64,000 bases of DNA from Antitrichia curtipendula. Its lineage: Eukaryota > Streptophyta > Bryopsida > Hypnales > Leucodontaceae. The stretch spans positions 24,592,254 through 24,656,253 of the forward strand of contig OX579641.1 in NCBI GenBank assembly GCA_951230915.1, given 5' to 3'. Shown here in pieces: positions 22,185 to 45,594 of the stretch (the stretch's first letter is position 1; every line of letters starts with the position of its first letter). Both the position numbers and the translations under genes were made by a program. The notes under the pieces were generated by a model, which did not search any database, was not told where the DNA came from, and saw only the letters and a program-made list of their open reading frames with translations.

Positions 22185-22215
22185 ATGCCACATTTAACTA
22201 TATTTGGACTTTGGA
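22185..22215 (+). repeat. Left terminal inverted repeat of the large element
   Basis: Begins ATGCCACATTTAAC and continues TATATTTGGACTTTGGA. It differs from the inverted right end at positions 6 (A/G), 14 (C/T) and 31 (A/G). All three differences are transitions. Confidence 0.75.
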
Positions 22216-22359
22216 GCAGTCCAGAAATAAAAAAATGCTGAAAATCCCCAGGTGTTTCTTTGTGCATCTGGAGCCCTCCCATTTCCTATGTATCTGGAGA
22301 TTTCCACAAACCAAGTGCTATGGCGTTTGAAACACTACATACTGTGCATCCATAAATAA

Positions 22360-22935
22360 TTATACTAGTTCGGGATCACTATACATCCAAGAGGATTCCA
22401 GATGACGCGCACTAGAAGACAATCTAGCTCCCTTCGAAGCACAGACTTCATGAATAATTGCACAATAGCCTTCATCATTAGAAATGTCACATTTAAACAT
22501 CATCCACCGGAGCCCAATCAATTGATAGAACTTTACATTATTTTTCACATTTTAATGAATTATTGAAACAATGTACACTGAAAACCTCGCTTCTCCTTGC
22601 ATGCAAAGATGGTGAATGCATCTAGGGACATCCAGTTGAAGTTGCCAAAGTACAAACAAGAAGAATGCAGCTAGAGGGCTCCAGACAAACTTCATAAACA
22701 AAAAACTTAACGGAGTCAAGGCTCCACCATCCAACAAAGCCTTGCTAATCAATCGATAAAAGTTTACATTTTCTCAAACTAATGAAATAAATACAATGTA
22801 CACTAAAAACCTCACTTGTCTTTGCTTGTGAAGACGGTGAATGCATCTGGGGACATCCAGATGAATTTGGAAGACTACAAAGAACAAGAATGCAGCTAGA
22901 GGGCTCCAGACGAACTTCGTAAACTAAAAGCAGAC
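22360..22935. repeat. Degenerate 225-bp tandem duplication at the 3' end of the transposase-like gene
   Basis: ATGTACACTGAAAACCTC at 22571 recurs as ATGTACACTAAAAACCTC at 22796, an offset of 225 bp. Both are followed by GAATGCATCT, a GGGACATCCAG half-palindrome and AGAGGGCTCCAGAC. A weaker third copy precedes 22560. The repeats run into the 3' end of the minus-strand gene and contain variants of the element palindrome. Confidence 0.6.
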
Positions 22936-22939
22936 GGAG

Positions 22940-25900
22940 TTAAGGATCCACCTGATTAGCCCTATTCAAATTCACTAAGGCAGCCTCCCTATTTTTCTTA
23001 GGAATCATCCGTGATTTAGGATCTACAATCTTGGACCAATTCGAATACACTACGCAAGTTGCATCCAACCAAGTAGGAGAACTATTTTCAACAACCCATT
23101 TACCATACCAGCAATTGCGGTACCGTAATTCCAAGGTACTTTCGGAGTTATCCGGCCGCCAATACTGAAGCAAGAACTTCCCGTAATTCGGATCTCCTTC
23201 TAGTCTACATATAGTGGACAATGCTCTTCCTTGCCAAACAGCACACACAACCGGGTCTTCAGGTCTCAAAAGCACCCAAGAACCTGGACGTATGTCAAGC
23301 CAAGGATTGAAGCTTTCTCGTGGAGCTTCATTGGCAGGGCCGCAGTACGGTTCCGGATCTTCTTCCTCAGGAACAACATCCACAGGATTGACCATGAAAG
23401 TTCGGCGAGGATTTTCATCACGTGTCACCCTCCAATCGTGTTGTGGCCAAAAGCCTTCAACCAACTCTGAAGGGCAGTCAATCAGTGGTTCTTTCAGCTC
23501 TCGCAGTATACTATTCCAATATTCCACATACGGACCAAAGGCAGTTGCAAACCCCTCACATTTAGACATCCCGTTTTTCCAGTACTGAATGTATTTTTCT
23601 AATCCTACCATCATAAAACCCTTGTTAACAGTAGCTTTCCTGGCCATCTCAATAGCCTTCTCTCAATTTCCCGTGTCTTTGGGAACTTCGCTCCCCCACA
23701 TGGGCTTGAATGGAACAGGCTTTGGACAGCCTGGAGGGAGCTTCGGCTAACCATGTGAATCTTTCTTCCAGAGGCGTTGAGAAGGTTTATCAGATGGTAA
23801 CCATTGTGAATCAACTGCTGACTTTTTGTACTTCATGACAGGGACCCCATCATTATCCACATAGAACTTAAAAAGATGCATCTCCTCCAATCCAATTAAT
23901 CTAGCAGTCCCACTACTTTGGTATCCCTTTATAAACGACTTGAAATTAGCCACTTCTTGAATGAACTCAGGCATGAATGCTAGCTCCTGCGACTGCATGA
24001 AGGCCTTCATCAAGTCAGCAACGACAAAAGTATTCTTGGTCTTCAAGGCCTTAGAGAGATGGCTGAAATAAGCATCAATGTCTTCATGTGTATGTCCGAC
24101 AAGTAGAAAACCAACTTGAATTTCCTTGAAGACTCCACGCGCAGTCAACAAGGACAAGAATGCCATGAGGTACTGGTTCTTGTTATCCTTTGCCGAGTTG
24201 TCGAACTGAAGATACAACTTTTCAGGAAGAGGGGAGGGTCCACGCCGAGATGATGGTTCCACTAAGGTCAAACAATCCATACAACGTGATTTTCCTCTAA
24301 GTAGTGCTTCAAACATAGGGTTTGCTGGCGGATATGGAAATAAGTCACCTATCTCTCGAATCGGAGGACCCTCCAAGCGACGAAACAATCTAGCCAATGA
24401 CGAAATTGTGAAGTTTGAGTCACCCGGCCAACACGATGGTGCATAGTGCGCATACGCACCATCACCGTGACCATGAGCTACCATACCTGTTACGCTCATC
24501 GGTATCTGCCCCAAACCTTGAGTGGCCTTGGTTGTCACGCGCATCCGTGGTAAAGCTGTCTTTGAGGTATCCATCTTATCATGAATTACACATAAAATGT
24601 TCTGCGGATTCCTTTTGGACTCCTCCTGCCATGAAGCGTATAGGCGTCGACAAGAGGCTTGGTGATTGAGATGTTCAATCCGTTGCTTCGAGAACTCCAC
24701 GAACTCAGGACTTCCTTTGGGGGACTTCAAAAGAAACTGTTGCAACTGGTCGCATAAACTACACTTTGCAAAAGAGCTCCCAATGGGCTTTATAGAAACA
24801 TTGTTGAAATGCTCCTTCTTGATTCTACTGATTGTAGACTGGCTCACAAGTGGAAGCCCGTAGTCAGCATTTAACTGCAAAGGCAGCAAAGCCAACAATA
24901 AAATACATAAGCTACAACAAAGGCAGAAGATCATACAAAACAAAATTGAAGAAGCCAGGAAACAAGATTTGAAGTAAAACACAAAAGCAAAGAATGTATC
25001 AGCTGGAGGGCTCCAGCTGAGTTCTAAACAAGATAGGAGAGAGTACCTCGTTGGCTTCAACACGAACACGTTTCCAGTTATTTCCTGCAGGCAAAAATTT
25101 GAGAGTGTCCATTCTCCCATGTCCAATACCGCGCATCTAGTGGGGCATTTGGTCGGCGTTCTCATCGATGATTGCTTTCATAGTACCAGTGACTTGAACG
25201 GTTCCAATCCTAGGCCTCTTGACCCCTTTGTTTCCGTGAATTCCCGAAACAACGCCGTCTTTATACATTAACATATAACCATGGTATGTGGACTTCAAAA
25301 TTCCGTGAATTTGGTACCAAGCCGTAATGCATATTTCTGCACCTTCAAGACTGATTACTTTCCGGTTCCTATCTCCTTCAAAATTATGAATTTGGCTGCC
25401 GGCAGCAATCCCATATTCGCGACGATCCTCAAAAGACTTCAAATAGAACCTCTGTCTCACAATCAATGTCTGCTTTTGTGGAAAGAACTGGCAGCACCGC
25501 CTGCTGCAGCATGGGGAGGCAGTAACCTTCCGAATTTCAGAGTCCCTAGTCTTACAAACGGCCAACGAATCCTTTATACAAACACTAGGCTTCCGGTTTA
25601 TGAATCGGTAAGGCGCTTTCTCTCTTCCACCAAGATAAGCTAAGTGGTCTTCAGCAACGGGAATAGAAGCAAAATAGTCAGTTGTCTCCTTCAAAGATCG
25701 GCCACAAGGAAACCAACAGGTTGATAATGGCCACCGGGCATGAGTCATTATAGCTTCCGTGTTTCCTAAAAAAACATCCAACACAGTAACACCCAAATTC
25801 CCTACACCAAGTACTCCATCCTGAAAATGGTCGTCTGGATTCCAGCAAATTATTTGCCCCGCCGCCTCAACAACGCCCTCGGAGTTCTGAAGATGAACCT

Positions 25901-26432
25901 CGAGACCCACCCAGTCATCTTGTGGAACATATGAAGAAGAATCCATGGGCGGATGTGGAGGTGCTCTTTGAACCTCTTCTGTTCTCCACAACACTGTCCG
26001 GTTCATAGCGTCCGACATCGATGTAAGCCCCCTTTGAATCGGTGTCAAAGGCATCAACTCCACTCCACGGAGTAAGGAGTGTGGCCGAACCAAAATAAAA
26101 ACACCTCGCTCCAAAGGAATATCCACCCCAAGCCACTGGCCCTGTGGACTAGCATCCACAACCAATCCTCGTCCAACTTCACCGAATCCAGCAACAAGAA
26201 GCATAACATCATCACCGTCGATAAATGGCCGACCCCGACCTGTCGACTCTTCCGAGCCTTCGTCCGTGGAAAACCCAATTGTACACCGAAGTACATTGTT
26301 GCTCTCACCGATGAAATTCATTTCCACTTCCATACAATTGGTCGAGGAGTCAAGGATACGTTCGAACGTAAAAGAGGCCTGAGAATCAAGGAAGCAAATA
26401 GAACTGTGAGAAATATTCAGAGGGATAAGCAC
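22940..26432 (-). pseudogene. DUF7869-like RNase H-fold transposase-like gene
   Basis: Two exons, 26432-25047 and 24874-22940, joined in phase by a 172-bp GT-AG intron, give about 1,106 codons. Residues about 70-330 contain two similar small-barrel-like segments (GDDVMLLVAGFGEVGRGLVV and VGLEVHLQNSEGVVEAAGQI). A Cys-rich segment (CCSRRCC) and an HGN motif follow near residues 335-415. The core has IHDKMD (D561), QFDNSAKDNKN (D687) and GHTHEDID (E726), a DDE-like spacing of 126 and 39. The C-terminus (PGSWVLLRPEDPVV, WLDA) again looks barrel-like. I recall this core as DUF7869, common in non-seed plants and invertebrates. Three in-frame stops (TAG 25137-25139, TAG 23747-23749, TGA 23663-23665) break it, but there is no frameshift. 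The true 5' exon is not fixed; 26432 is only the limit of the frame. It is the likely transposase of the large element. Confidence 0.72.
24875..25046 (-). other. Intron of the transposase-like gene, with a palindrome
   Basis: Donor GAG|GTACTC and acceptor TTTGCAG|TTAAATG on the minus strand. It joins ...VRVEANE to LNADYGLPLVSQ in phase 0, as the family sequence continues. A palindrome variant, AGCTGGAGGGCTCCAGCT, lies at 25008-25025 inside the intron. Confidence 0.7.
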
Positions 26433-26558
26433 TCAATGGTAATATATGACATATGAAATTTTGAAATCCCTTATTTACGGGGTCAGAAAGACACAGAAAG
26501 CTACATACCATGATCAACTTAGATATGCAACCTAAAATAGAACCCCTAGCTATTCTAC

Positions 26559-27077
26559 ATCTAGAGCACTCCAGATAGGAAGCCGTATCTGGATCACTCC
26601 AACTGAACCAGCCTCATCTCGATCACTAGAGATGTGAAATAGTCACATCTCTACCTAGATTGCAGAGTACAGAGATTCAATGACTAGTATCAACCATTCC
26701 CAAGCAATTGATGTGATCCAGAAAGAATTCATCAACAGGAGTGATCCAGATAGCATTCAACAACTGGAGTGATCCAGATAGAACTCAACAACAGGAGTGA
26801 TCCAGACAGCATTCAACAACTGGAGTGATCCAGATAGAATTCAGCAACTGGAGTGATCCAGACAGCATTCAACAACCGGAGTGATCCAGATAGAATTCAA
26901 CAACTGGAGTGATCCAGATAAAGTGAACCGCCGTTAATCAATTATCGAACAGTACCAAGTAGGCGTACTCATGAAGTCGACAATTTATCCAAAAATGATC
27001 TCCTTCTTCATGGGTTTAGGTTAATACAAAGGTGGACATCTGCCCAGGTCCTCCATTTCATCTGGATCAATCCAGAT
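26559..27077. repeat. Left palindrome cluster and 28-bp tandem array
   Basis: Copies of the palindrome stand at 26559-26576 (ATCTAGAGCACTCCAGAT), 26587-26604, and 27060-27077 (ATCTGGATCAATCCAGAT). Between them, at 26735-26940, about seven 28-bp units follow one another, each holding CTGGAGTGATCCAGAT or a variant with an ATAGAATTCAACAA spacer. The cluster lies upstream of the minus-strand gene, where its promoter or leader should be. I infer protein-binding sites. Confidence 0.8.
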
Positions 27078-30000
27078 GATGATTTATTACAATGACTGAC
27101 TAGAATTTTTACCAACTCCTCTTGAAACTGCTACGTTCTGTACTTCAGTACACCTAGAATGAAATATACATACTCGTATCGTTCATGTATGTACATACTG
27201 CTACAGAAATACATGTGTACATGTATTCTGTATGCACGTGTGGCTTCCGTAGACTGGCACATACCTTGAAGCAGACCGAGATTGTTGTAAACATCCTTTT
27301 CTACTTAATGCTATCATTTACGGCATCCTCTCTCTGCTCCCCTCTTCGGTCCGACTAAATGAATCATTTTCACTACAATGGTCTCAAAGTGTGTGAGCGC
27401 AACTGATCATATTGAACGCAATAGTGGAGCATTCTGTCGGGGTCAATCATTTAAATCTAAATTGACGCACTAGAACTTGAAAACTTTCGTATAATGAAGT
27501 GATGATCTCTCACCTTCTGCACAAAGCGCCGTCGTCAGTGAAGTCCTCTGCACAAACACCCTCAGCACAGCAATATGTCATTTTCTTACATCAAATCGCC
27601 AGAACTTGGAGATTAGAGATGCGGAGGAGGATTCAGTGGAATTCAAAAAAAAAAAAGAATGACTGACCATGAGAGAGTTGGCCTCCGCGGCGAAGGGGAA
27701 TTTTTTTGAATAATTTGAAATCCTGCCTGAATTGTGCACGGGATACCTTGGCGGCGGATCTTCTTTCTACACTTTGACTAACGGAAGATTGTCAGCTAGT
27801 AAAGGCATTATTCAGCAGTCGATGCCGCATTAGTGTGGCTTGTGGTTTCAAAATATGACTTCCTAAATTCCCTATTCCACTCCCTTGATGGTGCAGTGGA
27901 ATCCTATTTCATCGGAATCGAAATCTTCAATTTGTAGCTTCATGAGCATTAAAAGTTCGTTACATAACTATGGAGTATTTCATACACAGTACAAACAGTA
28001 ATCATAGAATTTTCCCCGTGCAGGTGCTCTGTTGAGACTTTCACAGCAAATTTATGCCACATCCCCAAAACTACTTCAATTTTCATTTGTTAGAAAAAAA
28101 AGCGTTTGTCTGATACATCCTGTATACAGGCACTTATCTGAGTATTTCCATTCTACAACCTTGCTTACATCACAATCATACCAGTTTTTTAGATCATCTA
28201 TAGTAAAAGGTCTGTCTCTTGAGTTTTTTTGAGAAATAGAGATATCCATGTACAATCAGCATCACTTTTGGGACAATTGCAAAAATTGCCCAAATTTGTC
28301 TAGAGCTTTTACTTAGCCTACTACAAAGTTAAGACTGCTCTTTTGTAATATAAATAACTCAAGTAGAAACATATATAGTTGGTGAAAACCTTTCTAAATA
28401 TATCAAAAAAGTGCTAAAATGGTGTATGGTATTGGAGAGAAATGTGAAACGAAATTCAATCGTTCCTTGAGGTAGTAAGCCTCACCTGCACCCATAACAA
28501 CCAACGTCAAAACATGAGGTTAGAAGTTGCATGCGAGGTGTCTTTAGCTTACTTCAACGTGTTATTGTTTTCACAAGGAAAAAAAGAATAAAAAACATCA
28601 CAAATCCAACAACCAAAATCACACCACATAAAATCAGCAACATAGAATCTGAACCTGGCTGCCGTTCATTGACTGAGATGAAGCCATATTTCCACTTGAG
28701 GTCCAACCAATGCAGTAAGACTAACTTAGCAAAAATCCGTAGAGTATCACTTCGTTTAGCCCAACGCTTGCTTATAGAACAAACTCAATAGCTAAAATCA
28801 GAACAAGCAAGAGACTGACCTCCCCAGATAGTGCAGCTCGTCATGTACAGCAATGCTTTGCTGGGTATAAGAACCCATTAAGCAATTAAGTTCTGTCGCT
28901 GTGACTGTCAAGTTCTGTTACCATCGTGCTCTGTTACTGTCAAGCTTTGCTACCGTCAAGCTGGCTTTAGGAAGCCAAATGGAGGCACATTAAAACCATC
29001 CTCTTAATGGTCTAATCGGTCATTTGTGCCCCAAATTAATGAATTAGTTAATTTGAGTAGTTGGACCATCCTTGTGCATAAATGTACCTGTCATTCTATA
29101 GAATTGAGGCGGTTAGGAACCTGTCATACTTGATAGCTGGGATTACAATCTCCACATGTTAGATCAAGGTAGGTACATGTCATAATTTTTCCTTAACTGA
29201 TAAATAGATTATTCATCAACGGAAAATTGCCATTAGTTTGATAACTATCATGGCATTAATATAACTGCAGATTTTGTCAAGTTTATAGTCATGTGATAAA
29301 TTGCCATTATAAGTTGGCTTAGCATAACCACAACTAGACTTAAATCTTTATTTTTGTATGCAAAAATAAAGCAAAAAAAAATAGAGTAGATATCTTCTTT
29401 ATTTAAGAATAAAGAAAAAATAGTATAGAAATTTTTCCATATGCTTCATTAACTCATCAAGTCAATATGTTCCAAAGATAAGAACATTTCTGAAATCATA
29501 CTAAATAGCCATCCCAAAACTTATACTTGGGTATGAAAGCTAGAAAAAAAGAAAAAAAAGAAAAAAGAAAAAAAACTACTACTTTAATTAAGGAAATAGA
29601 AGGTAACACGGACTTCCTCCTAATATAGAAGAAACTAGTGTGCCCATGTGCCGTTGTCATAGCCAAAAAGAAGTAAAATTAATTTCCTAAATTTTTTATT
29701 GATACAAAAACTTCGAAATTCAATAACTTTCATATTTTTCCGTTAATAGAATGATAATGTTCCGTTTCTTTCAACAAACTCAATAAAGCTAGCTACGTTA
29801 AGTTTTGGATCAAATATAATGAAAGGATCTGACAAAGTATGAGTATTGGCAAGTATGCAGGTGGATTGACTTCAGTCTCCTGTGTCAGCCAGAATTTTTA
29901 GGAACCTTCACAACGTTGCAAATGGTATAATGTAAGTTCTGATATACTATTCCGTTCAAATGGCAAGAAACTGGGGGGAGAATAATATTTCATACACTGT

Positions 30001-30409
30001 GTAGGTAAGATACTCTGCGCATGTTAAGTATTTGGATTTTCTAAATGACACGTGTCTGACAGAATATGAGAAGACTTTGAATTTTGATGCACTCACATAA
30101 ACTCTGGCTAGGTTGGAGAACCGGTCCACTGACATTGGGAATTCTAATTCCATCCGCGATTACTTTATGAAGGTACACGACTTCTTTAGTTACTTCATAA
30201 TAGATGCTTTTTCCTAATAAACCCACATCGTGACACAAAAACCCTAAACCCAAGCGGTTTAGGTGGAATGAAACCCTCCCAGTTTTTACAACTGAATGTT
30301 CAGAAAAAATCTTACTTTAGAATCCTAGACTGCGAATTCTACTAATTGTCTTTTAATTTTAATTTATATAAATTAACTATAACCACGTGGATGCAGTCAA
30401 ACAACAATT

Positions 30410-31024
30410 TTAACCCCTAAAGGACCAAGCGGATTTTCTGTGAAAATCCACTCCAAACTGCCACTACTGCTGCGTTTATAGAAAATTTCAACGAAATTTT
30501 TTTCCTAGTATAACCGTTGGATTCTGTACTATACTTGAAGAAGAACAACTGGTAAAAATTTCATAAGTAAACATTTGACCATACGGTTTGAAAGGTATGA
30601 GCATTTGAGTTGAACCCCCTTTGTTTCTCACTGTGCCAAAAGCTTCACCGTCCTGCCTTTGACCATTGATTGTTGTAAATTTTGTACTATGGTGCTAAAA
30701 TTTTTTAAATCTCAAATTGTAAATCATGTTAGGAATGTCTCCAAAAAAATTTCAAGAAAAAATAAAACATGGATCACATTCAAAAAAATGTTGCAATTAT
30801 GCAACAATGTCCAAAACTTTACAATGGCTCACAAGACTTCTTGAGAAATAATTTCACCACATTATTTTGAAATTCAAAAATCCAAACAATGGATTCAAAG
30901 TATGTCTTCACAATGAAAAAAATAATTGAAATATAATAAAGAATCTAGTTCCTATGAAATTTAGAAGCACTATGTGAAGAAAGAGTGGAATATGGTTTTG
31001 GGCATGACATGAAAAAAGGGTTAG
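30410..31024 (+). mobile_element. TTAA-type element remnant inside the large element
   Basis: TTAA (30410-30413) followed by CCCCTAAAGGACCAAG is the family A end sequence. The interior differs from the other copies. A possible right end is GGGTTAGA near 31018-31024, a decayed GGG-TTAA. Boundaries and family membership are tentative. Confidence 0.45.
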
Positions 31025-31133
31025 AAGTGTTCCCGATATGTTCCCATTATGCTCCCAGTATGTTATAATCATTGGGAACTTTCAGTGAGGAAGAACTTAG
31101 TGCACTGGGAACCAAGCTTAGCTTCAACTGGAT

Positions 31134-31354
31134 TACACTAAAGATGGTATTTAGTGTTACCTACACTAATTTGAATAAAAAAGATATAGTTTTTTACTCT
31201 TGATGGGTATTTTTACCCATGAGAACAATATCAATATTCATTAAAAATGAGGATCTCTGTAAACATAGTTGGTAAAAATATTCCTCCAGAGTGAAACGTT
31301 GTAGCATATTTACATCAATTAGTGTAGGTAACACTAAATACCATCATTAGTGTA
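31134..31354. mobile_element. TA-flanked MITE, 217 bp
   Basis: TA at 31134-31135 and 31353-31354 flank an element at 31136-31352. Its ends are inverted repeats of about 36 bp: CACTAAAGATGGTATTTAGT on the left; the right, read inward, starts CACTAATGATGGTATTTAGT. Both continue GTTACCTACACTAATT. The ends are almost identical, so the insertion is young. No coding capacity. A TA duplication fits Tc1/mariner-type MITEs. Confidence 0.8.
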
Positions 31355-34106
31355 GTGTGCCATGTACCATTACCACAGGCAAATTGTAAGTAAAAGTAAT
31401 TATTAAATTTTTTTAAACCAAAAATAACTAAAAAATGCACAACTGTTCCACCATAGGTCCGAACGCCATGAAACAAAGCCCATGCACCCTTTCTCGCTGA
31501 GGGCTTTCCAATGGTACCAAGCACGCAACCGGGGGATGCATAGTCCTCCAGATCTCACCGTACCAAAAACAAAAAAACAAAAAAATACATCATTCAACTT
31601 GAATAGAACGATTGGAGAGGAGATGGTCGGATTTCAAAGTACTGCAACCTTGACATCATCCCTACCACATGAAGTTAAACTTTTTCATAAACACAAACTA
31701 AGCGTCCCAATCCATTCTCATCACACATGAATCAAACAAATACATAATAACTACAAAGATAAATAAATAATTCAAGTGAACAAAATCTTCCACAATTCAT
31801 GATTGTTATTTTCAAAATGTTATAGACATTCCTTGAAGACATAGGAATTCTAAACAAGTCTATTAACAAGTAGTGTGTATTTGATTGATCTAACATTTTA
31901 CCACACAAACTAAAATAGAGTTATCAAAAATATAAATAATGTGGGGCATGGAATATAAAATGGGATAAGATGGAAATAAGGGGAGATGCAAAATAATAAA
32001 TATCCAACATAGAAACTAAAAATACTAGCTTGTTGAGAAGCTAAAGAAATAAATTATCCTTCAAATTAGGAAAGTTTACACAATGGAAACAAAAACCATT
32101 GGATAAGAAATTGGTACCCTATAATATTTTCAAAGTTGGTAAATTCCTAAATTATTTCATTAGAAACTTGTACTTCTTTATCTAATATTATCATATAGTT
32201 TATGTTTATCTGTACTCAACAGTTTCTTTTTGTTCCGTACTAACTATATTCACATCTTTTTCAGCACCGTGCTGTTTTATCAAACTTTGAACTCTATCTT
32301 CCCAAAAATTGGTATCCGGGCAGATGTGCCAAAACGGGTAAATCCATCTACCATTCTTGATTGTGAAGTGTCGTGGAAGTCAATTTTCCCTTGCCAAATT
32401 ATTTCAACAATGCCATCACACGTCCAAAGTTGACACAAATTTTGTAATGCAGAAGAACAAAATGCCCCCCATTACAATAAAATCCAATCATCACTTATTT
32501 GTGCTAATCTCCCATTTTGTTCTATTGTAGGTGCCCAAATCCCAAACACATAAGAACTGTGGTTTTGATCCCAATAGATGGTATTGTAGAAATCATTGAC
32601 TCAGACATCGTATGAATGAGAGAACTTGTGAATCCTACAGAGCATTCTTGAAGATTCATAAACTCTGTTTTGCCCTGTAATCGAATGCTAGTTTGTAATC
32701 CCTCATCTATAGTTTTCTTGTACATGCATGGTCTTAGTTTCATAAACCAGTCCTTCATTCATATTAAAACTCTGCAATCCGTTTCACCAACTCCACTTGG
32801 TCTTCTTCCCGTTCATCTATAGCGGTTTTAGAGTTTTTAATACTCCCATGACATAGTGACCCATGGTGTATCCTCTATTTATGCCACGTCTCCACCGTAA
32901 TGCAAACATTTTTTCATTCACTTGGTCCTGGGGTTTTCTTATGTACCCTAAGCCTCCCTTCCTCAATTTTGTTGGAGATGTTGTCAAGTTTTCAAAGTCT
33001 TCATAATTAATAATCTTCAAAAGTTAGATTTGATGTCTTCAAATTTTGTGAATGAAATCACTAGCACTATGTCTTTTGTGTTCTTATCTTAGATGGCTAC
33101 TTTATTTTTGTGTAGCATTAGATAATCACAAGGAATCTCATCCATCACCATTCCATCTGAAGCAATATCTTCTAAACTGTGAGTTCGTGAAATTATAACA
33201 CATTCATTATCTTCATGTGGACCTATTTTTTCAAACGTCTTCTTCAAAGATTTGTTGTACCGTGCTTTTGCATGAGCTTTGTTTATCATGGTCATATTAC
33301 CTTTCCCTCTCTTTGAATTCCCCTCATGATTGTATATATTCTATAGTTTTATAGAGATAATTCAAATACTTCAAATTTATTAACAAATAATAATTGTAAA
33401 TACATCCAATGTGGTGAATGCAAATAATATTTCATATGGCTTTTGCTACTCTATTTAAACACTTATATCTAAAAGTGACAGCAATCTTTTACATTAGAAT
33501 TCATTTATTTTTTTGAAATGTAAAATATACCTTTAATTTACATGATTAGAGGTCTTTCACTTCTTTGAAAAGTGAAAGGATTCACTCACAATAGACCTTT
33601 TTTACTTTTCAAGAGTAAAACAAACCTTTTACATTAGAGTTCTAGCTTTCACTGACCATCTAGATTGTCAAATTTCACTAAATTTGTTATAATTAAGACT
33701 GCTTCCAAAATATACTACTTCCAAACTCTCACATGAATCATGTACATGCCATATATAAGATCCGAGCCAATTTTAAAAAAAAAATCAAAATTTTTAAAAC
33801 TCCCTAAACCTAATTTTCAAAATTCTCACTATGTTTCTTACACCTTAAAAGATCAAAATTTTGAATTTTCTACACTTCTATTTTTAGAAAACACATATAC
33901 AATAATAGAACCGAGTACTTGCTCAAAACAGGATTTTTGAATTACTTTTTGGCCCTACATCCAAAAATAATAAAGGGATTCAAAATAAAATATTCATCAT
34001 TTATTTTGTACACATTACACACACGTGTGTACACACACAAAAAAACAAATTAAAACAAAAAAAAACAAATTAAAATTTATAAAAAAATAAAAATAAAAAT
34101 AAAAAA

Positions 34107-34109
<3 letters not shown>

Positions 34110-34163
<54 letters not shown>
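34110..34163. repeat. (AT)n microsatellite
   Basis: About 27 uninterrupted AT units flanked by AAATAA-rich sequence. Confidence 0.95.
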
Positions 34164-34172
<9 letters not shown>

Positions 34173-35790
34173 TAAAAAATAAAAATATATATACTTTCAT
34201 TTTATATTTACATACATCTTTAGATCTCCTTATTATTTTGTTTACACTAACTTTTTTTAGGAATTTATGCATGCCCCCTAAGTGTATGGTATGTGCATTT
34301 TTGAGAAGGATGACTTCTTAAGCATCCCCACATACTTGGAGGATATAAATTAGAGCAAGCACCATAACTTATTTTTTTATTTTCATTTCCATCCTTTTTT
34401 GTCTAGGAATTTGTGCAAGCCTCCCAAATATGTGATATGTGCATCATGAGAAAGATGACTTCCAAAGCATCTCCATATACTTGGAGGGCTTATTTTAGAG
34501 CAAGCATCAAAAAAAAATTATCTGGAAATAACTATAAGCTTGTATATATTTCTTGTGTTGAATGGCCTATCCAATTTCCTATGCTAATATGCTTCTTTTG
34601 ATATTTATTACAACTTCCAGTTTAAGGGAATGTCCTGGGCAGGCCCTTTCTGGGAATAAAAAAATAGAATTGTGAACAATTTGTTCATTCAATTGTGACT
34701 AAATAATGTAATTAGTGCCCTTTGGAGGTATTCATCATACCCCAAAATATTTTTTTTGTTGGGTTTATAGTGTAGACATTCATAAATAATAATTTTGATA
34801 TTACTTTTGAGTATTGACATGATTGAATATAGAATTATGATTAAAATACTCAATCATTATTTCAAAATAATGCATCAATGGCTTTAATGTAAAACACGCA
34901 GACATTCAATACTTAATTGTTAATCATGGAGATTTGATTTAAATTACCATAATAAATTTCATATCAACTTTGCAAAAATTATTACGTTGGTATATGGCCC
35001 ACAAATAGTGAATTTCATAATAATCTATTAATAACTAATATTAAGCAAGTACTTGGCAATATGATTGTATAAAACTTTAACCTTTGAATGACTAAGAAGT
35101 TCAGATTGGGTCTCACATTTTTTTAGGAAATGTTAAAGTTTGAATTGAAATGGTTTCTTTGATTAATTTAAATAATCATTTATTTAAACCAATGCATATA
35201 ATGTTTTTTTTATTGCAAACAATGATGCATTAAAAAACTTTATTACATTATACTTTCTACAATATAATCAATCAAAGTTTGTACCTTAATATTATGAACT
35301 CTTAGTACATAAAGAATTAAATCTTAAATAGACTTGAACGTTAATTTTACAAAAATATTAAATTAATAAAATTCTACAAGAATATTTAAATAAGCAATCA
35401 TAATATGAATTCCAATGAGGTGTATTGGATGACAAAAAAAATTTAGTGTGAATTTTAGAGTCCTAGTGTGGAAATAATAAATCTATCTTATTGATTCACA
35501 TCCAACTCCAAAAATTAGGGCCCTCATAAGTATAGAAATAATAAACCAGTTCTATTAGCTAAGTAATAAAAAAAAAATGCAATATGAATTTTACGGCCCT
35601 AGTGTGGAAATAAAATCTAGTTCTACTGTACTTTTTCCCTTCTCAATGGAGATTGTCCATGTGTTTAAAAAAACCCAAAAAAACAAACTAGTTCTATTGA
35701 CACATAGTCAATCAAAAGAATATAGATGGAATGGAATGATTTGGGTTGGACGACAAAAAATTGGAGCTCATATCCTAAACCCATAATAAT

Positions 35791-35873
35791 CAAATGAATG
35801 AACTTCATTCATTTGACTTCTCGATAACCCCCCCAAGTCTCCCACTAATGAAATGAATGAAGTTCATTCATTT
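35791..35873. repeat. Twin perfect palindromes
   Basis: 35791-35815 is a palindrome with 12-bp arms (CAAATGAATGAA, then C, then the exact reverse complement). 35851-35873 repeats the design with 11-bp arms around a G. They are 35 bp apart and lie just upstream of the likely leader of the right-hand gene. They could be regulatory sites or cruciform-forming. Confidence 0.85.
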
Positions 35874-35875
35874 GT

Positions 35876-36452
35876 AATCATGGCAGGGACGGCGCCATCA
35901 TGTGGGAGCCTTGAGCATCACCTCCTGCTCAACTTGTCTCCCTCCCGATGGCGGCTCCCTCTCTCGATGTACACTCTCTCTCCGCAAGCTCCCATTGTGC
36001 GTGGTGACTACTCGATGTGCACTGTCTCGACGCGTCGAGCTCCCGTCGTGATTTTCGTTGTCGTCTCTCCGCCCTCCTCTTGCACTGTGCTCTTCCGCCG
36101 TACTCTTCCGTTGTAGGTCCTTTGTCTTCTTCCGCCGCGCGCTGGTACCGTATGTCCTCCCTCCTCTTCCGCCGCGCGTCGGTACTTCCTCCTCCCTCCT
36201 CTTCCGCCCACCTCTCTGCTTCTACGAGCTTGTGAGTCCGTGATCGAAACCGACTACATTGCGCGGTTGGGAGGAGTACGCCGATTTGCAGCAAGAGCAG
36301 CTCTTACTAGTCACCACCAACGTCCCGGACATCGACTTGCCACCAACGCTGAAGCAGTCGGAGCAGCGACTGAAGTCCACCGCCACGAACGTTGGGACAC
36401 CGATTTGCGCCGCGAAGCAAGTGCGGCTGCCGTGGTCACCACATTTTTGTGG
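35876..36452 (+). promoter_or_regulatory. Putative promoter and leader exon of the right-hand gene set
   Basis: A pyrimidine-rich, GC-richer island (CTCTCTCCGCCCTCCTCTTG and similar) that ends at a strong donor, TTTGTG|GTAAGT, near 36452. Pyrimidine-rich leaders with an intron are usual for plant genes. A frame with DIDLPPTLKQSEQRLKST runs to the donor, so part may be coding. Assigned by position: the first in-phase ATG exon follows at 37321. Confidence 0.4.
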
Positions 36453-36517
36453 TAAGTTCCAGTGTGTGAGAGCTAGTGAGAAAATCTAGAGAGGGTGAAG
36501 TTCAGTCTATTTTCCTG

Positions 36518-36652
36518 GACGGTGTGTTTCCTCTTGAATTTCCGTTGTATTTCCTCTTAGATTTCCGTTGTGTTTCCTCTTAGATTTCCGTTGTGTTTCC
36601 TCTTAGATTTACGGTGTGTTTCCTCTTAGACTTACGGTGTGTTTCCTCTTGC
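36518..36652. repeat. 23-bp tandem repeat
   Basis: About six units of TTCCGTTGTGTTTCCTCTTA plus GAT, with starts near 36541, 36564 and 36587 and further copies either side. It lies in the presumed leader intron of the right-hand gene. Confidence 0.85.
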
Positions 36653-37640
36653 ACATTCAACTTGGCTTGCTTGGCTCTGACTGAAGGTGCGGCAGCTCTG
36701 TTAGCACCAAAGATGCCACATGGAAGACAGTGAACTAGTTTGGTAGTACAGGTCTCCTTGTGTAATGGAGGTTTAGGTTCCTCTTGATTCAATCATGGTT
36801 GTTTGTTTTTCCAAATAATAATATTGCAGCTTCAGTTGCCTTCAGTTGACTCTTTCTCCCAAACGCATCACCATTTGAAAGGATCATGATTGAGAATAGT
36901 AGGCCGTGTTTGAAGTCTGTAAACTTGATTACAGTTTTAGTTCATTAATTTGTTGTAAGTTTTAGTTCAATCATGTGTTCATTTGTTTGAAGTTTAGGGT
37001 TGCGGGGTTATGTATGCAGAAGTTGTAGTTCACGCATGTGGAGAATTCAAGGAGGTGTCTTGTAGTTAGAGAGTTAAATAGATAGTCATTGTTTGAAAAT
37101 CAATTTACTTCGCTGCAATGTCTGTTTGCCATCGCATGCAAGCAATGTTTGAATTTGTATTATTTTAATTTGTCAATGCTTTGGGTTTTGTCAATGCTTA
37201 ATTTGAAACAGTATGCACATTCAGAAAAAACGAGACATCCTTCGAATACAATGTGGTCATTGTATATTAAATTATACACTGCTGGTTGTATACAGGTATT
37301 TGAAGTCAGTAAGAAAGATCATGGGAACACGGCGAGGCAAGGAAACAACACCAGTGTGGGATAATCCGTAAGCAATTCCACCCTAAACCCTACTACCGTG
37401 GAAGTTAACCCTATTACCCCCAAAACTTGTCCTATGACCGCGGACCTCGAAGCTTCCAGATACAGTTCTGTAGTTAGATTTCTACAATAATCTCATACAA
37501 AGTGATCCATAGGATCATCTGAAATATCGAGCAGCAGGCAAGATCCGCAAAAGGCCACATAAAAGTAGAAGGTCGAAGGCTAAGTAATTTGATAGATAGG
37601 AATATAACGGAATCTTCATGCTTCAAGTATGTTCACAATG

Positions 37641-38500
37641 AGACATCTGGAGTGCTCCAGATAAATCAAGATGTTATCACATCTGGAGTGCTCTAGATGA
37701 GAGTCAGTTAATTTGAAAGCATTCAGAGAGTTCCACCTCAAAGCTTGGAATCACTGAGTCATCTGGACTGCTCCAGATATTTGAAGAGAATATCCTATCT
37801 GGAGTGATCCAGATGAAAGTCAGTAAATTTGAAAGCACTGAGCGAGTTCTACCATCACGCCTGGAAACAATGAGTCATTTGGAGTGCTCCAGATTATTGA
37901 AGATAATATGTTATCTGGAGTGATCCAAATGAGTCACATAATTTGAAAGCACTGAGCGAGTTCAACCTTCAAGCATGGGCACAATGAGTCATCCGGAGTG
38001 CTCCAGATAATTGAATAAAATACCTCAGCTGGAGTGATCCAGATAAGAGTTTGAGAATCTGAAAGCAGTGAGCAAGTTCCGTATTAACGCTCCTAAAATA
38101 ACAAGGTTAGATGCAAGCTTATTGGTTGGATACGATTATCGCGCAGACATGAGGCCTCATATACGGTCTCAATTAGTCATCAGGAGTGATCCAGATGATT
38201 CAAAATCTTGTTTCATCTGGACAGATCCAGATGAGAGTCTTAGTGAGTTTCCCGTGAACTTACGCAGCATTGCAGGCTGGGGTGCACATTTCATGGACGA
38301 CTAGGAATAACGTTGAATCTCAAATGCATTAAGCATTGCCCAACGATCAGTCATCTGGAGTGTTCCAGATGTAGAAATAGGTCACCGCAGGTGGAGTGGT
38401 TGATAACCTAGTCGTAGAATTCTCAGGCGATTGGAAGTAGTGATCGGTTAGTGATGCACAATGCATGCTCGCAGTCAGTCATCTGGAGTGCTCCAGCTCA
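37641..38500. repeat. Right palindrome cluster within intron 1
   Basis: At least twelve copies of the palindrome. Exact ATCTGGAGTGCTCCAGAT is at 37645-37662 and exact ATCTGGAGTGATCCAGAT at 37797-37814. Variants stand near 37681, 37761, 37875, 37913, 37990, 38028, 38181, 38212, 38352 and 38480. From 37641 to 38060 they sit in about four tandem units of 115 bp, two palindromes per unit, with AATTTGAAAGCACTGAGCGA between. The array fills the inferred first intron of the right-hand gene. Confidence 0.85.
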
Positions 38501-39863
38501 ATGAAGAGGCTAGGTGCAGTCGATGGTCACCTTCACATCTAACTAGCTCTTGGTTGAATGCAGTGATGAGTTTCTTCAGGATGGACCTGAGGACGCGTGC
38601 CCAATTAAGCTCAGACCCTTTTGTGACGGATGGGTTCATCAATTTCATTACAGTGGGAAATTGCACACAGCGGCGGTCTATTGCTGCTTAAGCAAAGTCA
38701 GTGAATGGGGGATCCAGTGGAAGAAGGATGAAGATGAACGCGTGCGAATTGTCCCAAAACTTATGAGTGGTATGAAAGTGCACCGCGACGTCGGCCTTGA
38801 CATTCTAGAAATGCAGGGTCTTGACAACGATACTGCGCTCCTAGTCATTGAGGAGAAAATGCCCGGATCGGATAGTACAAGAATCTACGGCCTCATCCTC
38901 GATTACAGCTCGATGGAGTTGAGTCACTGCGAATCACTGGTGGAACAATCGTTACTGGATCCCAAAGGCGGCATCCCGAAGTGGACGCCGAAGGAAATGC
39001 AAGTTACTTGGAGCATAATTGAGGAGGCTCGCCAAGACAGCAGCCGAAGCAAGGCATCCCAGGCAATAGTACCAGTCGCAGATGCAACACCGTTGCCAAA
39101 GAAAAAGGGGAAGAAACGGAGGTCCCTGACCGGAGCACCAGGAGACAAGACGGCTGCAGAAGATGCTGCCAGTAAGCTGACCATTTCCGCTTGCATTGCA
39201 ATGAAGGAGGCTGAGATAAAGAAGCTCGACTCCAAGCAGTTGAAAGTGATGAAGGCATTGTACAAAGCTCACTTCGACTGCATGTACAAATGGAAGAAAC
39301 AACCCTTTGTCGACGCCAGTGGTGACGTCCTGCGGGTGTACTTCGACTATCTTCACAGGGCCCCAGAAGGAAGGCTAGTGTATCAAGGCATTGAGGATAC
39401 CCGATTACCTGGTATGATGAACAGAGCACGCCTAGAAACTGACTTTAACGCTGATTGGAGAGTCATTACAGTGCTTCCTATAAAAATCGGGCCATACAGC
39501 GCAGAAGGGAGGGCGACGTATTTTGATACCTGTCCAAAGCTGGAATCCATCACAAGACAAACCCACTACTTTATTATTGGGGGACAACACACAGTGGAGG
39601 CCTACAAGAAACTTGTCGAAAACGGAGAAATTCCCGAATCGGATGTTCATGAAGCCTCTTGCTTTAAAATCATCCCAATCTTTGCGCCGCGAAGCAAATT
39701 CTCGGACGTGATACACCTCTCTCGAGCTCTAAACCAGAACGTCGCTGGTGAACAGAAGGAGCAATCATTTCTCACGCAGCTACTTACCGCAAGAATCAAA
39801 TGGAGGGAGATGGGAAGTCCACAACCAGCGTATGGCGGCCGACCACACACTCCTGCGTATAAT

Positions 39864-40178
39864 GTACGTTTATTCTTTTCTATATTTTTTTTCTTTCATA
39901 AAATATTGTTAGAAATGGACATCACATTACACCCATCTAAATCACTTCTGATGGTCGAATCTGTGAGTCCGTGATGGTTTCAAATGTCAATCCATTGTTG
40001 CTTTCACCTGGAGTGATCCAGATGGTGTCCATTGCTTCTGCTCGTGGTATTATAGTCTTCGGGATTATAGTTCTCAAATAGGTCATCTGGTTCACTCCAG
40101 CTGCTTGTTTTGATTTTCTCTAATGTCGACAAATAACATGGATGTAAAACTAATTCTGTATCATTATGCATTCAAGAG
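39864..40178 (+). other. Intron 2 of the right-hand gene, with palindromes
   Basis: Donor AAT|GTACGT and acceptor CAAGAG|TTTGTT, both phase 0. Palindrome variants lie near 40008 (CTGGAGTGATCCAGAT) and 40085 (ATCTGGTTCACTCCAGCT). Confidence 0.55.
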
Positions 40179-43135
40179 TTTGTTCCACTGATCTCAACTA
40201 TTTTCACCTCCGTCAAAGGGACCGACACAAGTGAAACAAAAATCCCATTGTTATTTCTGGAGGATGACGTTGACGTAGAGAAGTGGGTAAGGATTGAGAG
40301 GGAGTATGTGCAATACATTCTTCCGGGCAATGAGGACAAACTACCGGATCCAGCGAAAGGATTGCGGAAGCGCCTGACTCTATTTGATTTTAAGACTCTA
40401 TACGGGTTGCGGGTGGAGGATATCAACTTCCTTGCAGATCGGGTGCAGAATAAGGAGATAACTGTGAAAAGCTCGAAGGCCAAGCGAAAAGGCGGAGGCC
40501 CGACACTGGAGACCCTACCGGAAGCTGGAGCTAGAGAACGATACATCCGAGCCATGAAGAATGAGATGATGCTTCATTACCGGCAGTACCATCTTCCCAG
40601 CAAGAAGCCGGAATACGTTCCATACCCCGATTCGGAGTTCGAGGAATTTGCTACTGAGATGAAGTTTGGACGTCCCGAATTACAGCTTTGGGTGGACAGA
40701 GCCATGGCAATGGACACAGGGAAGAATTGGCTTGAAGGTCGGTCGAAGGGCTTAAACAAGACGTCCGACCCCGCGGACTGTCTCAAATTTGTGCACGACA
40801 TGTGGAATGCATTCATCACGGCGAAAGCCCAAGTCGCAGTGGCAGAGGCAATGGAGAAAGGATTTGCAGAGAAGTACCTATCAAAAATCATGGACGATAA
40901 TATGTGGAACATCAACGGCATTCTAATGCAACAGGACGTTGTAGCATGGCGTGGCGAAGGGATGAGGCACTTGTACATCTGGTATTTGTTTGAAGCCACG
41001 GCTACGGGACCGCGGGCAAAGTTTTTGGAAGACCGGAATCTGCGACGTGTTTTTGATGCTCTGGAAAGCGTGGAGAAGAATGGCACCTCCGTTCGGTCAC
41101 CAACGATTCTCATGACGGATGCTCAAGGATTCCATGAAGTAGTGGCTCACTTGTACAAATGGAAGTTGGAGATCGCGCACAAAATTTGGGACTAGCACGT
41201 GATTCACTACATTGTTGGACGCGATCACGGCTTTCCAGAAACTGCCACTGGAAGCGAATTCGTGATGTCCGTAATTTTCTGCTTTGGATACAATGAAACG
41301 GAAAGCGCGCAGAGCCGCTTCAACTACTACTTCCCCTCTCAATAAGTATACAGTTCTGTATACAATTCGGAGGCAATCCCGGCTGACGTAAACAGTTCAT
41401 GGAGGCGTCGTGGTGTGCCCTATCTGAGTGCAAATTCCGCACTTGTATTATTCGGAGGGTTAATACGAGATGACATGGTGCTTGTTAACGTGAACGGGGG
41501 ACCAGAGATCACTCACCTGGGAATGGTAAGACCAAACGATGGAAACTGGTTGTTATTGTTGTTATATGTTGTAGTCTTAGTCATCTTGTATTCCTAGTGA
41601 TCTTGTGAATTAACTGGCGATCGTTGTATTGTACCAGTGGGGAAGGGTGAAGGTTTTGGAAGTATTTAACTCTGCGGAGGCGGAGAAAGCTGGGATAATT
41701 ACTGCCAGACAAATGCAGGAGCAATTTGCAGTCAACGTCCCGCAAGAAGAACCGCCCGATGTTGAGGAACTCTCAGACAGTGACACGGAAACTCCAGAAA
41801 ACACCGGCGAACAATACTCTGAAAAGAGCGATGATGAGCCTCCAAAGCGCAAGTCACCCGAGGTGAGTGTTGCATGAACTTCATGCATCTGGATTGCTCC
41901 AGTTGTTCGTTTGGAGAGTGTTTGTGGACCTAGTCTCATATTCTAGACATTGTTATTGCAGGTGTCCTCTCCTCCACCATCATTGCCGCCTAAGAAGTTG
42001 AAGGACCCATCCGCAAAGAAAACTGCGGAAAATCCACTTTCCGCAGTCACGACAGAGGGAACAAGCAAGCAGAAGAAGAGGAAACTTTCGGAGTTGGTGG
42101 AAGATACCCTACCAGTTTTAAATCGTAAGAAGGCGGGTCAACCAAAGCAGAACCTGAATGCACGATTTATGGAGTCGGAGAGACGAGGAGAGGGGAGTAA
42201 TGCGTCCCCAGGGAATCCGGATGTTTGTGATTCAGTGGATGCCGCAGCTGAGGTTGTTCAACAGGAAAGGGATGCTGCATCAGCATTACTATCTTTCCCA
42301 AGTACTGGTCAAGTTGCTCACACTCCGGGATCTACTGTTGCTGAGTCTGATGGACTGGAGGGCCATGCTGCTAGAGCGAGGAAGGATGGAGCTGCGCCTA
42401 GTTCATCTGGAATAGTCCAGATGGACCCAACTGAAATCGGTGCTCCGGAGATGTCTGGACCTATTTGGGATGACACACTAGAAGACTTGAGCCCATTGAG
42501 TCCCAACTTGCGCCGTCATAACGATGCAAATGTCGCAGAGAAGGTTAGATCTAGGGGATAGCATTACAACTCTGTATCATTTTCATTGTTTGAATAAACT
42601 GGACAGCTTTGACTGCATTTATAGTATCAGGTGATGAATAAGTTCCATTTTGATTCATTTTACTCAGGGATGCGTATGTGTGTGTTCTTCCTTGTCTCCC
42701 AGGATGTTCCCATTGCTGTGGTACATGACTCTTTCGTAGGAGTGTTGAATGTTGTGACCCCCGACGTGATCATCAAACAGAAGGTTGCGGGTGACAAGGT
42801 GACTGGCGTTGAGGTAGAGGAGGGGATTCGGGGTGACGAGTTAAAGAAGAAGGATGATGTGATGGTGGAAAGTAATCCTGGGAAAGACAAGGCTGGTGGA
42901 GTAGGCGTGGTGGAGGTGGAGAAGGAGGCTAGCGTGATGGAGGTCGAGAAGGAGACTAGTAAGCTGGAGAAGGAGAAGGAGGCTAACGTGATGGAGGTGG
43001 AGAAGGATTCTCATTTGGGTGTCCCGAAAGGTGCTTCTCGTGACCTCTTCGACTAGTTTATTTTCTACTGGGACTTTCATTGTTTGTAACGGTTGTATCC
43101 TGCCTGTAACTGGTTCCTTTGTTTGTTGTCTTCAG

Positions 43136-43788
43136 ATCTTGTTTCGGATTCATTGACGAAGAAGACTGTATCAAGTAAGGTATCTATAAGGCAATACGTC
43201 GTGGTTCTGGACTTGAACGGACTTCTTATTCATCGTACTTATAAGGATAACAAATCTGGCTTTACTTGGAGACCTGGTCTCAAGAACTTCCTTGACTGGC
43301 TCTTCCGTAGGGTACGAATAATATTTTGGAGCAGTATGCAAGATAAGAACATGTGCAAACTGCTAGCAAAGATGCTGTCGGCTACCGCTTTTGGCCCTAC
43401 AGAATGCACATATCTTTCGCAGGCTTCGTGCACTCTGTCTTCATACTGAGACCCAGCGAACCCAAATAAACCAGTATTTTTGAAGGATTTGTCAACCCTG
43501 GTTCAGATGGGCGATGTTCAGTCTGTAGAGAATGTCTTTTTGGTTGACGACAGTCCGATTAAGAACTTATTGAACCTTGTTGACAATGTTGTTCACCCAG
43601 CGACCTGGTCTGGTGAATTAGGCGATAACTTCTTGTCACGAACTTTGAAGCCTTGGCTTGAAGGTCTTTTAAAGTGCAACGAAGCTGTGCAGGTTTATGT
43701 CAAAGCCAACCCACTTTTCGGGTGCCAACTGCCGGTGGATCCAGTGGGTAGTGTAGGATTCCAGGTTCTGAAGGGTGTAAAGTATTAA
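43136..43788 (+). pseudogene. FCP1/NIF-like HAD phosphatase domain
   Basis: After acceptor TTGTCTTCAG the frame gives a full FCP1 homology (NLI-interacting factor) domain of the HAD superfamily. These phosphatases act on phosphoserine or phosphothreonine, often on the RNA polymerase II tail. Motif I is VVLDLNGLLI (nucleophile Asp at 43210-43212); the second Asp of the usual DxDx(T/V) is Asn, a variant I recall in a plant subgroup. TWRPGLKNFLDWL, IIFWSSM, NKPVFLKDL and the motif III-type FLVDDSP follow in family order. One TGA (43447-43449) interrupts LSSY-DPANPNKP; CGA to TGA would explain it. The domain ends normally at TAA 43786-43788. It begins in phase 1, so it is probably the last exon of the preceding gene or of a separate one. 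A palindrome follows near 43812. Confidence 0.75.
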
Positions 43789-44351
43789 GACTGTGGAATG
43801 TTAGGCTGCGTTCATCTGGGGCGCTCCAGATGATCTCTTTTCAGGGTTTTCTTAACCCCTGGACACAGTATTGTTGTAGATAGGACTAGGTGCAGACTCT
43901 CTGACATTTTGTATCAATCTATAACTGTTGTAAATGTCTTTTTTTAAAACTACCTTACAACTACTTTATATATTAGGATGACGGCGATAATGTTGTGTTT
44001 GTGTCATTTTAAAAATTTAATTGGCAGTTTAAACGCAAGTTCCTTAATTACATGGGTGGAATTTGGAATATTAGACAAGAGCAATGATGAATGTCAACAT
44101 GTAGTATTTCGAATTACAGATTTTGTCAGAAATTTTAACAACATTGCACACTGTCGTCAGAATTTGGGTTAGGACAATAAGGGAAATGTACTGGTAATGT
44201 GCTTTCTTTGGTGAACATTGAATGTGTGAATTTTATGCTCTGTAATGGACCCTCTAATCAGTGGTATTTGGTAATCTACACCAGGAGCACTCCTGTTGAA
44301 TATTGGTCGTCCGTTCACAATTGACCATGTGTTGTCACGTGGGTCTTTGCA

Positions 44352-44772
44352 GAGAGTGGTGATCCTGGTATTGACAGGTGTTTTGTGCACTGAGGCTGCT
44401 GTCGTGGATGTTCGACAAAACAAACAGATTGAGGCCTTCCAGGATTTAGTTGGTTTTATGCTGTCGAAGACTTCCGTTGGTATCTGGTCGAACATGACCA
44501 CTTCTAAATTGGAGGAGCTCCTTCCACGGATACTTCCAAGGAATTTTATTGCGATGTTATTTCTTATTAAAGGTTGTGACTTACCAAGCAGTTCAGACAA
44601 GTACTCCAATAGAGGCGACCTCTTCTCATATCTCTTTAGTAAAATGGCATGGCGCAACTTGCTTAGAAATTGCACCCTTGTATTCTCTGATGTGGATCCC
44701 CTAACCCAGAAGGTTTCTATAATACCCCCAGTTGTACATATTAGGGACACCCAACCAGCAGATTTGAAATAG
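44352..44772 (+). CDS. Degenerate FCP1-like domain lacking catalytic aspartates
   Basis: After a good acceptor (GGGTCTTTGCAG) the frame runs 139 codons plus a stop, without interruption. The layout follows the FCP1 homology domain: RVVILVLTGVLC where LDLDGTL would be, VGIWSNMTTSKLEELLPRIL for the IWSS/N segment, then NCTLVFSDVDPL and IIPPVVHIRD where LLIDDSP and NPP stand. Both motif I aspartates and the DD of motif III are replaced, so I predict a fold without phosphatase activity. It lies within the large element, downstream of the apparently catalytic copy, and may be a duplicate kept for binding or simply a decayed one. Upstream exons are not identified. The opposite-strand frame over the same bases is rejected. 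Confidence 0.5.
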
Positions 44773-44898
44773 ACTACCTTCAGAATTGCAAACAATGCTT
44801 TATTTGTATTCAATTCCTATTCTTTCATACATCTAAATAAAAAAAATGGTGGTTCCACTACCTTTCTTTATTATACAACTATCACTGTGTGATGGTGA

Positions 44899-45240
44899 AG
44901 GGAGAACATCAGAACGTCTCCAGACGTCCAATTCCCATTCCCAAGTTCAGTGTTAGAATTGTCAAATGAAAATGTAATGTAGAGGGGAGGACATCAGAAC
45001 GTCTCCAGACGTCCAATTCCCATTCTCAAGTTTAGTGTTAGAATTGTCAAATGAAAATGTAATGTAGAGGGGAGGACATTAGAACGTCTCCAGATGTCCA
45101 ATTCCCGTTCCCAAACTTAGTGTCGGAGTTGTCAAATGAATGTGTAATGTAGAGGGGAGGACTTGAGAACGTCTCCAGACATCCAATTCTCAAATTCTGA
45201 GTTGGAAATGTCAATTACTAATGCTATGGGTTGACAATCA
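44899..45240. repeat. 85-bp tandem repeat near the right end of the large element
   Basis: Four units at an exact 85-bp spacing (AGAACGTCTCCAGACGTCC near 44911, 44996, 45081 and 45166). Each contains ACGTCTCCAGACGT, a near-palindrome that includes the CTCCAG half of the element motif. Its subterminal position resembles the transposase-binding arrays of large plant transposons. Confidence 0.85.
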
Positions 45241-45563
45241 TGAGATGATCTCTAAATCTCCAATCCCCAACTCGAGTGTTGGAATTCCTCCGTTTCATGA
45301 TGAATGTGGAGGACTTAGCCAATCACGTGGAGATGGAAGAATGTAAATTCTCATTGCTTACACCAAATTGAGGACCTCGTGTACAAACATCACGATAGTT
45401 CCAGATAATTTTGCTAACTATATGCAAGTAACCATTGTCTACATGTTTCATTGCCCAATTATGAAATGTTTTCCTTTGTATTGTCACTGGCACAAGGCTC
45501 TGACTTCACCTAATATAGGTAGTAATTAGCTGGAGTGATTTTCCAAAACAGTCCAGAATTCTT

Positions 45564-45594
45564 CCCAAAGTCCAAATATAATTAAATGCGGCAT
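45564..45594 (-). repeat. Right terminal inverted repeat of the large element
   Basis: Reverse complement begins ATGCCGCATTTAAT and continues TATATTTGGACTTTGGG, matching the left end. A palindrome half-site (CTGGAGTGATT) lies about 30 bp inside it, near 45533. Confidence 0.75.

Follow-up and report, generated by a model that had tools for sequence, protein, structure and literature searches.

The window considered here is a 64-kb stretch of contig OX579641.1 from the moss Antitrichia curtipendula, whose genome measures about 400 Mb. Positions 22185..45594 of the window form an element with inverted ends, which carries arrays of a palindrome upstream of two divergent genes. A first-pass annotation of the window had placed a DDE-like gene facing left and a ParB-like/FCP1-like set facing right between 30-bp inverted ends 23.4 kb apart, with ATTT outside both, and each of these points was borne out. 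The left terminal inverted repeat (22185..22214, plus strand, ATGCCACATTTAACTATATTTGGACTTTGG) and the right one (45565..45594, minus strand) match at 28 of 30 positions, whereas the runner-up inverted match to the left end in the whole window reaches 19/30. ATTT stands immediately outside, at 22181..22184 and 45595..45598. The stretch is a copy of a giant DNA transposon family of the terminal-inverted-repeat type, canonically about 22 kb long, and we consider it probable that the element encodes a palindrome-reading regulator of ParB fold.

Copies, target duplications and empty sites

A genome search with the 24 inner bases of the element end (≤3 mismatches) returned 397 matches (187 + 210); the reversed control pattern returned 0 + 2. 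Among the matches listed, 24 inverted pairs were chosen: 23 have their ends about 18-24 kb apart, and one has them 39 kb apart. We also inspected eight more ends of the same pattern that had no inward partner among those matches. Full sequences of ten copies, together with the window copy, make a set of 11 (E3 and E4 each contain 200 N); the remaining 13 pairs are represented by their ends, and the 39-kb pair by part of its middle as well. The 4-mers flanking the ends were identical in 22 of the 24 pairs and differed by one base in E10 and E18. The 22 perfect duplications were varied in sequence, with 73% A+T. The annotation had expected other copies to show the same pair of ends, equal short duplications at different sites, and shorter derivatives; all were found, and the prospect it had raised that the ends never occur as inverted pairs elsewhere did not hold.

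The 11 complete copies measure 18.4-24.1 kb and align with the window copy over the greater part of their length; identity is mostly 92-98%, with poorer stretches in E6. They share one layout except for E23, a derivative without the transposase, in which 176 bp remain of the left end. In columns with a base in all 11 copies, 1146 of 2203 singleton differences were C>T or G>A, as would be expected of methylated copies.

We compared the flanks of all 24 insertions and aligned the joined flanks of nine. Empty sites were found for three insertions, each within repeats that have other copies. The joined flanks of E14 align through the junction to window positions 60491-60723 and to L038, with the target tetramer altered (TCAT and TCGT for TTGG). 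Those of E16 match the window at 49309-49596 and 47038-47243, where the tetramer AATG is preserved, and at 3751-3977, where 4 extra bases stand at the junction; those of E19 align to 59955-60229, with AATT intact. These sites are paralogous, not allelic; they agree with the annotation's proposal to look for an empty site. Mobility, like the ends and the target duplications, is shown by the sequences, and the family has probably been mobile recently.

Two mirror-image copies at C5:34676468-34721928 have equal numbers of stops in the transposase and ParB frames and encode proteins 90-93% identical to those of the window; an old copy has probably undergone an inverted segmental duplication there. 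The 39-kb pair (C5:27566453-27605637), with an intact ATAC duplication, probably bounds a single element made longer by nested DNA. Many end-pattern matches across the genome have TATTTTTGG or TACTTTTGG in place of TATATTTGG. Ends of the TACTTTTGG type adjoin transposases at 84-87% identity (e.g., C1:1493485 and C5:1170547) and, judged by this likeness, are those of a sister family.

The divergent transposase and ParB-like genes

The leftward gene occupies two exons on the minus strand. Exon A (25047..26432), N-terminal and Cys-rich, was placed by tblastn of P0082, P0093, P0108, P0114 and P0121; exon B (22943..24874), the catalytic one, holds DUF7869 and a barrel-like C-terminus. The GT..AG intron between them (24875..25046) contains one palindrome, site 25000. 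The window copy has a stop just past the open frame 25140-26432 of exon A and in-frame stops at 23747-23749 and 23663-23665 in exon B, a frame that is open elsewhere (e.g., 800 amino acids in E1). The predicted fold points to a DDE/D transposase: structural comparison of the model gave a best Z of 8.0, with uniform rows. Among rows with a residue at the position, D115, the conserved H-D aspartate of IIHDKMD, is present in 24/24, D241 in 26/27 and E280 in 26/27 (D in one). D281 and D283 are conserved in 27/27 rows, and any one of E280, D281 and D283 may be the catalytic residue. Foldseek returned a mixture of MazF, Mos1 and Argonaute for this model, none at E ≤ 0.001. The transposase query P0002 matched at 89 of 89 scored places, among 1745 first-look candidates in the genome. 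Named relatives in the liverwort Riccia and the moss Ceratodon agree with a bryophyte host. Our literature search found no paper under the name DUF7869. This Pfam domain "of unknown function" now has a predicted fold, that of a DDE/D transposase of giant elements, and it is abundant in the genome.

The right-hand set lies on the plus strand, its exon joins being predicted only. It begins with exon 1 of the ParB-like gene (38547..39863), whose ParB-fold part spans about 39294-39731. An open frame without a Pfam match (40137..41192), longer in E20 and E22, is probably the next ParB-like exon, and two low-complexity frames within 41947..43053 (41947-42558 and 42625-43053) are probably disordered linker exons. 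An FCP1/NIF-like domain follows (43090..43785), interrupted in the window by a stop at 43447-43449 and contained in a 232-amino-acid open frame in E1, E4, E5, E20, E22 and E24. Last comes an open frame (44275..44769) with faint FCP1-like similarity (26% over 65 amino acids to P0137). The predicted model of the ParB-like protein shows a ParB N-terminal fold, and VIA-align, applied to the Foldseek candidates, ranks ParB first. The CTP-binding motif of bacterial ParB is of the GERR type; at its place stands IIGGQHTVEA, which 6 of the 8 rows carry unchanged, P0131 having M instead of Q and P0134 having T instead of E. The NIF domain is recognized in the 232-amino-acid frame of E20 (PF03031, E 1.4e-16) and is shared with FCP1/SCP-type phosphatases. 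The catalytic motif of FCP1/NIF phosphatases is DxDx(T/V), however, and because DLNG stands in its place in the window, E1, E20, E22 and P0137-P0140, phosphatase activity is doubtful. A search with the FCP1-like protein returned four relatives, with 224 candidates scored, and our literature search found no relevant combination of ParB and FCP1.

The divergent pair recurs. The ParB query P0003 gave 90 scored matches among 553 candidates in the genome, and for 46 of these 90 places the matches listed include a scored transposase no more than 35 kb away. The arrangement is divergent at 44 of the 46 (locus E24 being counted twice), convergent at one and tandem at one; random placement gave a mean of 0.44 divergent pairs and a maximum of 4 in 500 trials. 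Paired places extend to 46% ParB identity, that is, to more distant families. We saw no instance of the left and right gene sets lying apart with other ends, although such instances may exist among the 44 ParB places without a scored transposase within 35 kb. These 44 places themselves carry little weight, as they are known only among the matches listed. The first-pass annotation had described a self-contained, large cut-and-paste element with regulatory cargo. The element stands, but "cargo" undersells the right-hand set, because that set accompanies the transposase in several families.

Palindrome arrays and their candidate reader

The palindrome has the consensus CATCTGGAGTGCTCCAGATG, scored over 20 positions. 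As the annotation had stated, it is confined to the element: all 35 window sites with ≤5 mismatches lie inside, as do 31 of 31 with ≤4 mismatches, with 0 in 40.6 kb of flanks. A looser core, TGGA-N4/5-TCCAG, has 18 occurrences within the element and 1 beyond it, against a mean of 0.2 and a maximum of 1 in 50 first-order shuffles of the element sequence. At ≤5 mismatches, array 1, upstream of the transposase gene (26558..27078), has 11 sites, partly with a 28-bp period, and array 2, upstream of the ParB-like gene (37644..38499), has 12. Of the other 12 sites, four belong to the left subterminal region and one to the transposase intron. Three lie in the gap between ParB exon 1 and the frame after it, and the remaining four, 42404 and 44279 among them, stand to the right of these.

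We then compared four related loci, one per family, over the 1.5 kb that precede ParB. A palindrome array was present at all four, and the arrays co-diverge with the protein. ParB identity is 72% at L077 (palindrome CATCTGGAGTGATCCAGATG), 61% at L076 (CATCTGGAGATCTCCAGATG), 52% at L075 (TATCGTGAGTTCCCACGATA, 54-bp period) and 47% at L074 (CATCGTGAGATCTCACGATG). Both palindrome arms shift jointly (TG..CA to GT..AC), and the frame CATCnnGAGATCTCnnGATG is largely retained. At ≤4 mismatches, the window consensus finds 0 sites in L074 and L075, and the L074 and L075 consensuses find 0 in the window region. Shuffled regions contained no palindrome sites, a description rather than an independent test, because the consensuses derive from the same regions. 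The transposases of L077 and L074 are equally distant from that of the window (84% and 83% identity), whereas their ParB-like proteins stand at 72% and 47%. Hence, as far as single loci can tell, the palindrome tracks ParB more than it tracks the transposase.

We propose that the leftward DUF7869 protein, given its predicted fold, would join both ends and insert the element at staggered 4-bp targets by a cut-and-paste reaction. The rightward gene would encode a regulator that is specific to the element and contains a ParB-fold domain, the FCP1-like domain lying further on in the set. As a putative dimer, the regulator would bind the palindrome arrays upstream of both genes and, once bound, would control or un-silence the transposase and ParB genes. 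Its action would resemble VANC anti-silencing of VANDAL elements, but via a ParB-type DNA clamp. Bacterial ParB-type proteins read palindromes, and the ParB-like protein is favored as reader for this reason and because the half-site change follows ParB divergence. This joint divergence, a sequence pattern, is the main support for the palindrome-binding step. On this proposal, the ParB-like genes of eukaryotic transposons, so far a puzzle, would be linked to defined DNA sites that change along with the protein, and the function of these genes becomes directly testable. Perhaps, though we hold this only tentatively, plant giant transposons have a ParB-parS-like system of their own. In such a system, a possibly nucleotide-driven clamp would load on the family's palindromes, spread over the 22 kb and keep the element marked. 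The mark could hold the element open for transcription, protect it from silencing, or keep its two distant ends together for excision, and protein and palindrome would co-evolve such that no family serves any but itself.

With bacterial ParB-parS, Noc and KorB the element shares a ParB-type fold and a palindrome array beside the gene; unlike them, it is a eukaryotic transposon with IIGGQHTVEA at the GERR place. Pfam gave no ParA for the element frames scanned, and no DNA-reading helix-turn-helix was identified. The nearest functional parallel, by analogy, is VANC of Arabidopsis VANDAL21. According to the available text of PMC5735166, VANC has 8-9-bp motifs that lie as tandem repeats in non-coding parts and change with the protein, and VANC causes loss of silencing. 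The palindromes are likewise often tandem, non-coding and changing between families with an element-encoded protein. They differ in being 18-20 bp long and in having a candidate protein of ParB fold, whereas VANC carries, in the same text, DUF1985/DUF287, which Pfam did not find in the element frames scanned.

Several observations weigh against a ParB-fold regulator and a DDE/D transposase acting in this way. A Z of 8.0 is at the level at which unrelated folds can occur. The ParB model has a mean pLDDT (predicted local distance difference test) of 48, with 55-89 in blocks of residues 251-390, and no ParB appears in its Foldseek top 50. The ParB-like sequence matches no ParB family in Pfam, and a sequence search of PDB gave no chain for either it or the transposase. 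A codon-phase test of the 11 copies gave little bias among substitutions: 5 of 79 300-bp bins reached p < 0.05 and none p < 1e-3, the gap in E23 adding noise, so that selection on the right-hand genes within the family is no more than possible. Predicted frames contain two of the palindromes (42404 and 44279), so the motif is not confined to non-coding DNA, and the co-divergence is seen upstream of ParB only.

Could the transposase of the same transposon be the palindrome reader, with the ParB-like gene in another role? We regard this as rather unlikely. In Spm/CACTA, TnpA reads subterminal motifs; here, palindrome-like motifs do occur close to the left end and within the intron (22265, 22668, 22844, 22893 and 25000), and the transposase also diverges (73-89% identity among more distant scored matches). 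However, the half-sites changed at L074 and L075, where the transposase is at 76-83% and ParB at 47-52%, and are unchanged at L077 (84% and 72%); moreover, the main arrays lie upstream of genes, not at the element ends. An origin of the inverted ends by chance or segmental duplication is scarcely credible. The C5 mirror-image pair (34.68-34.72 Mb) does resemble a segmental duplication, but this origin is refuted by 24 pairs at different sites, by 4-bp duplications that vary from pair to pair, and by the paralogous empty sites. Large size and several genes would also suit an integrated virus or a Polinton-like element, which we find highly improbable: a Pfam scan of ten element frames brought up neither a capsid nor a polymerase nor an ATPase, pattern-based scans of viral contigs gave no relative of the transposase or the ParB-like gene, and the duplications of Polintons are 6 bp long (available text of PMC10045372) as opposed to 4 bp.

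Classification and minor features

The chances appear evenly balanced that the element is a giant Sola-1 of the Ectocarpus type, DUF7869 being the Sola-1 transposase and only the host and the accessory domain being new. According to the available text of PMC12477816, Ectocarpus has giant transposons of Sola-1, KDZ and EnSpm, and similar proteins are reported from green and red algal transposons. The closest published element in that text is the 21.5-kb Sola1-1_Ec32, which carries a ParB-like and predicted DNA methyltransferase gene opposite its transposase. The 4-bp duplications, the similar size and a ParB-like gene that runs counter to the transposase all fit the published descriptions. Sola elements, in the available text of PMC10741241, usually measure 2-9 kb and have variable termini, a DDD-type transposase and 4-bp duplications; they are known from the moss Physcomitrella, and some elements exceed 15 kb. 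The duplications here agree (22 of 24 perfect, two with one mismatch). Against this, the ParB of Sola1-1_Ec32 is fused to the methyltransferase, whereas here an FCP1-like domain follows ParB, and the four ParB-companion frames scanned, with exon joins predicted only, gave no Pfam methyltransferase match up to E 10. Nor does the available description of Sola1-1_Ec32 mention palindrome arrays. Judged by these descriptions, the element likely belongs to Sola. The annotation knew of no described superfamily with this gene set. Because PMC12477816 describes, in the text available, a giant Sola-1 with an opposite ParB-like gene, that claim is narrowed and holds at most for the FCP1-like part. New relative to the available text of the papers cited are a bryophyte family, an FCP1-like domain in place of a detectable methyltransferase, the predicted fold of DUF7869, and co-diverging palindrome arrays. 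We found no paper combining "giant DNA transposon" and "moss".

Other superfamilies fit less well. The Kolobok target is TTAA, and the TTAA target of piggyBac/Kolobok was seen in 0 of the 22 perfect duplications. The TG..CA termini of Ginger are absent: both ends read ATGCC in 21 of 24 pairs, and the other three pairs have ATGCC at one end and ATGCT (E1, E7) or GTGCC (E10) at the other. Duplications of 4 bp also differ from the 7-12 bp of Mutator-like elements (these and the Ginger termini as given in the available text of PMC10741241) and from the 3 bp of Academ (available text of PMC5199201).

Several minor features complete the window copy. Subterminal direct repeats lie on the plus strand at the left (22568..22929, 2 x 137 bp, 85%) and at the right (44888..45192), where the 85-bp unit is present three times and more often in other copies, so that the length of this array varies. 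A second tandem array, of 23-bp units, lies at 36497-36673. About 1.44 kb of extra DNA in an A-rich tract (28101..29545) is a later insertion outside the canonical element; it is absent from E1, E4, E20 and E24, which have short A/C-rich sequence there instead. E5 carries a different insert at the same position; this tract may be prone to insertions. Outside the element, the host gene eIF-1A lies at window positions 306-791 on the minus strand (PF01176, E 1.4e-23).

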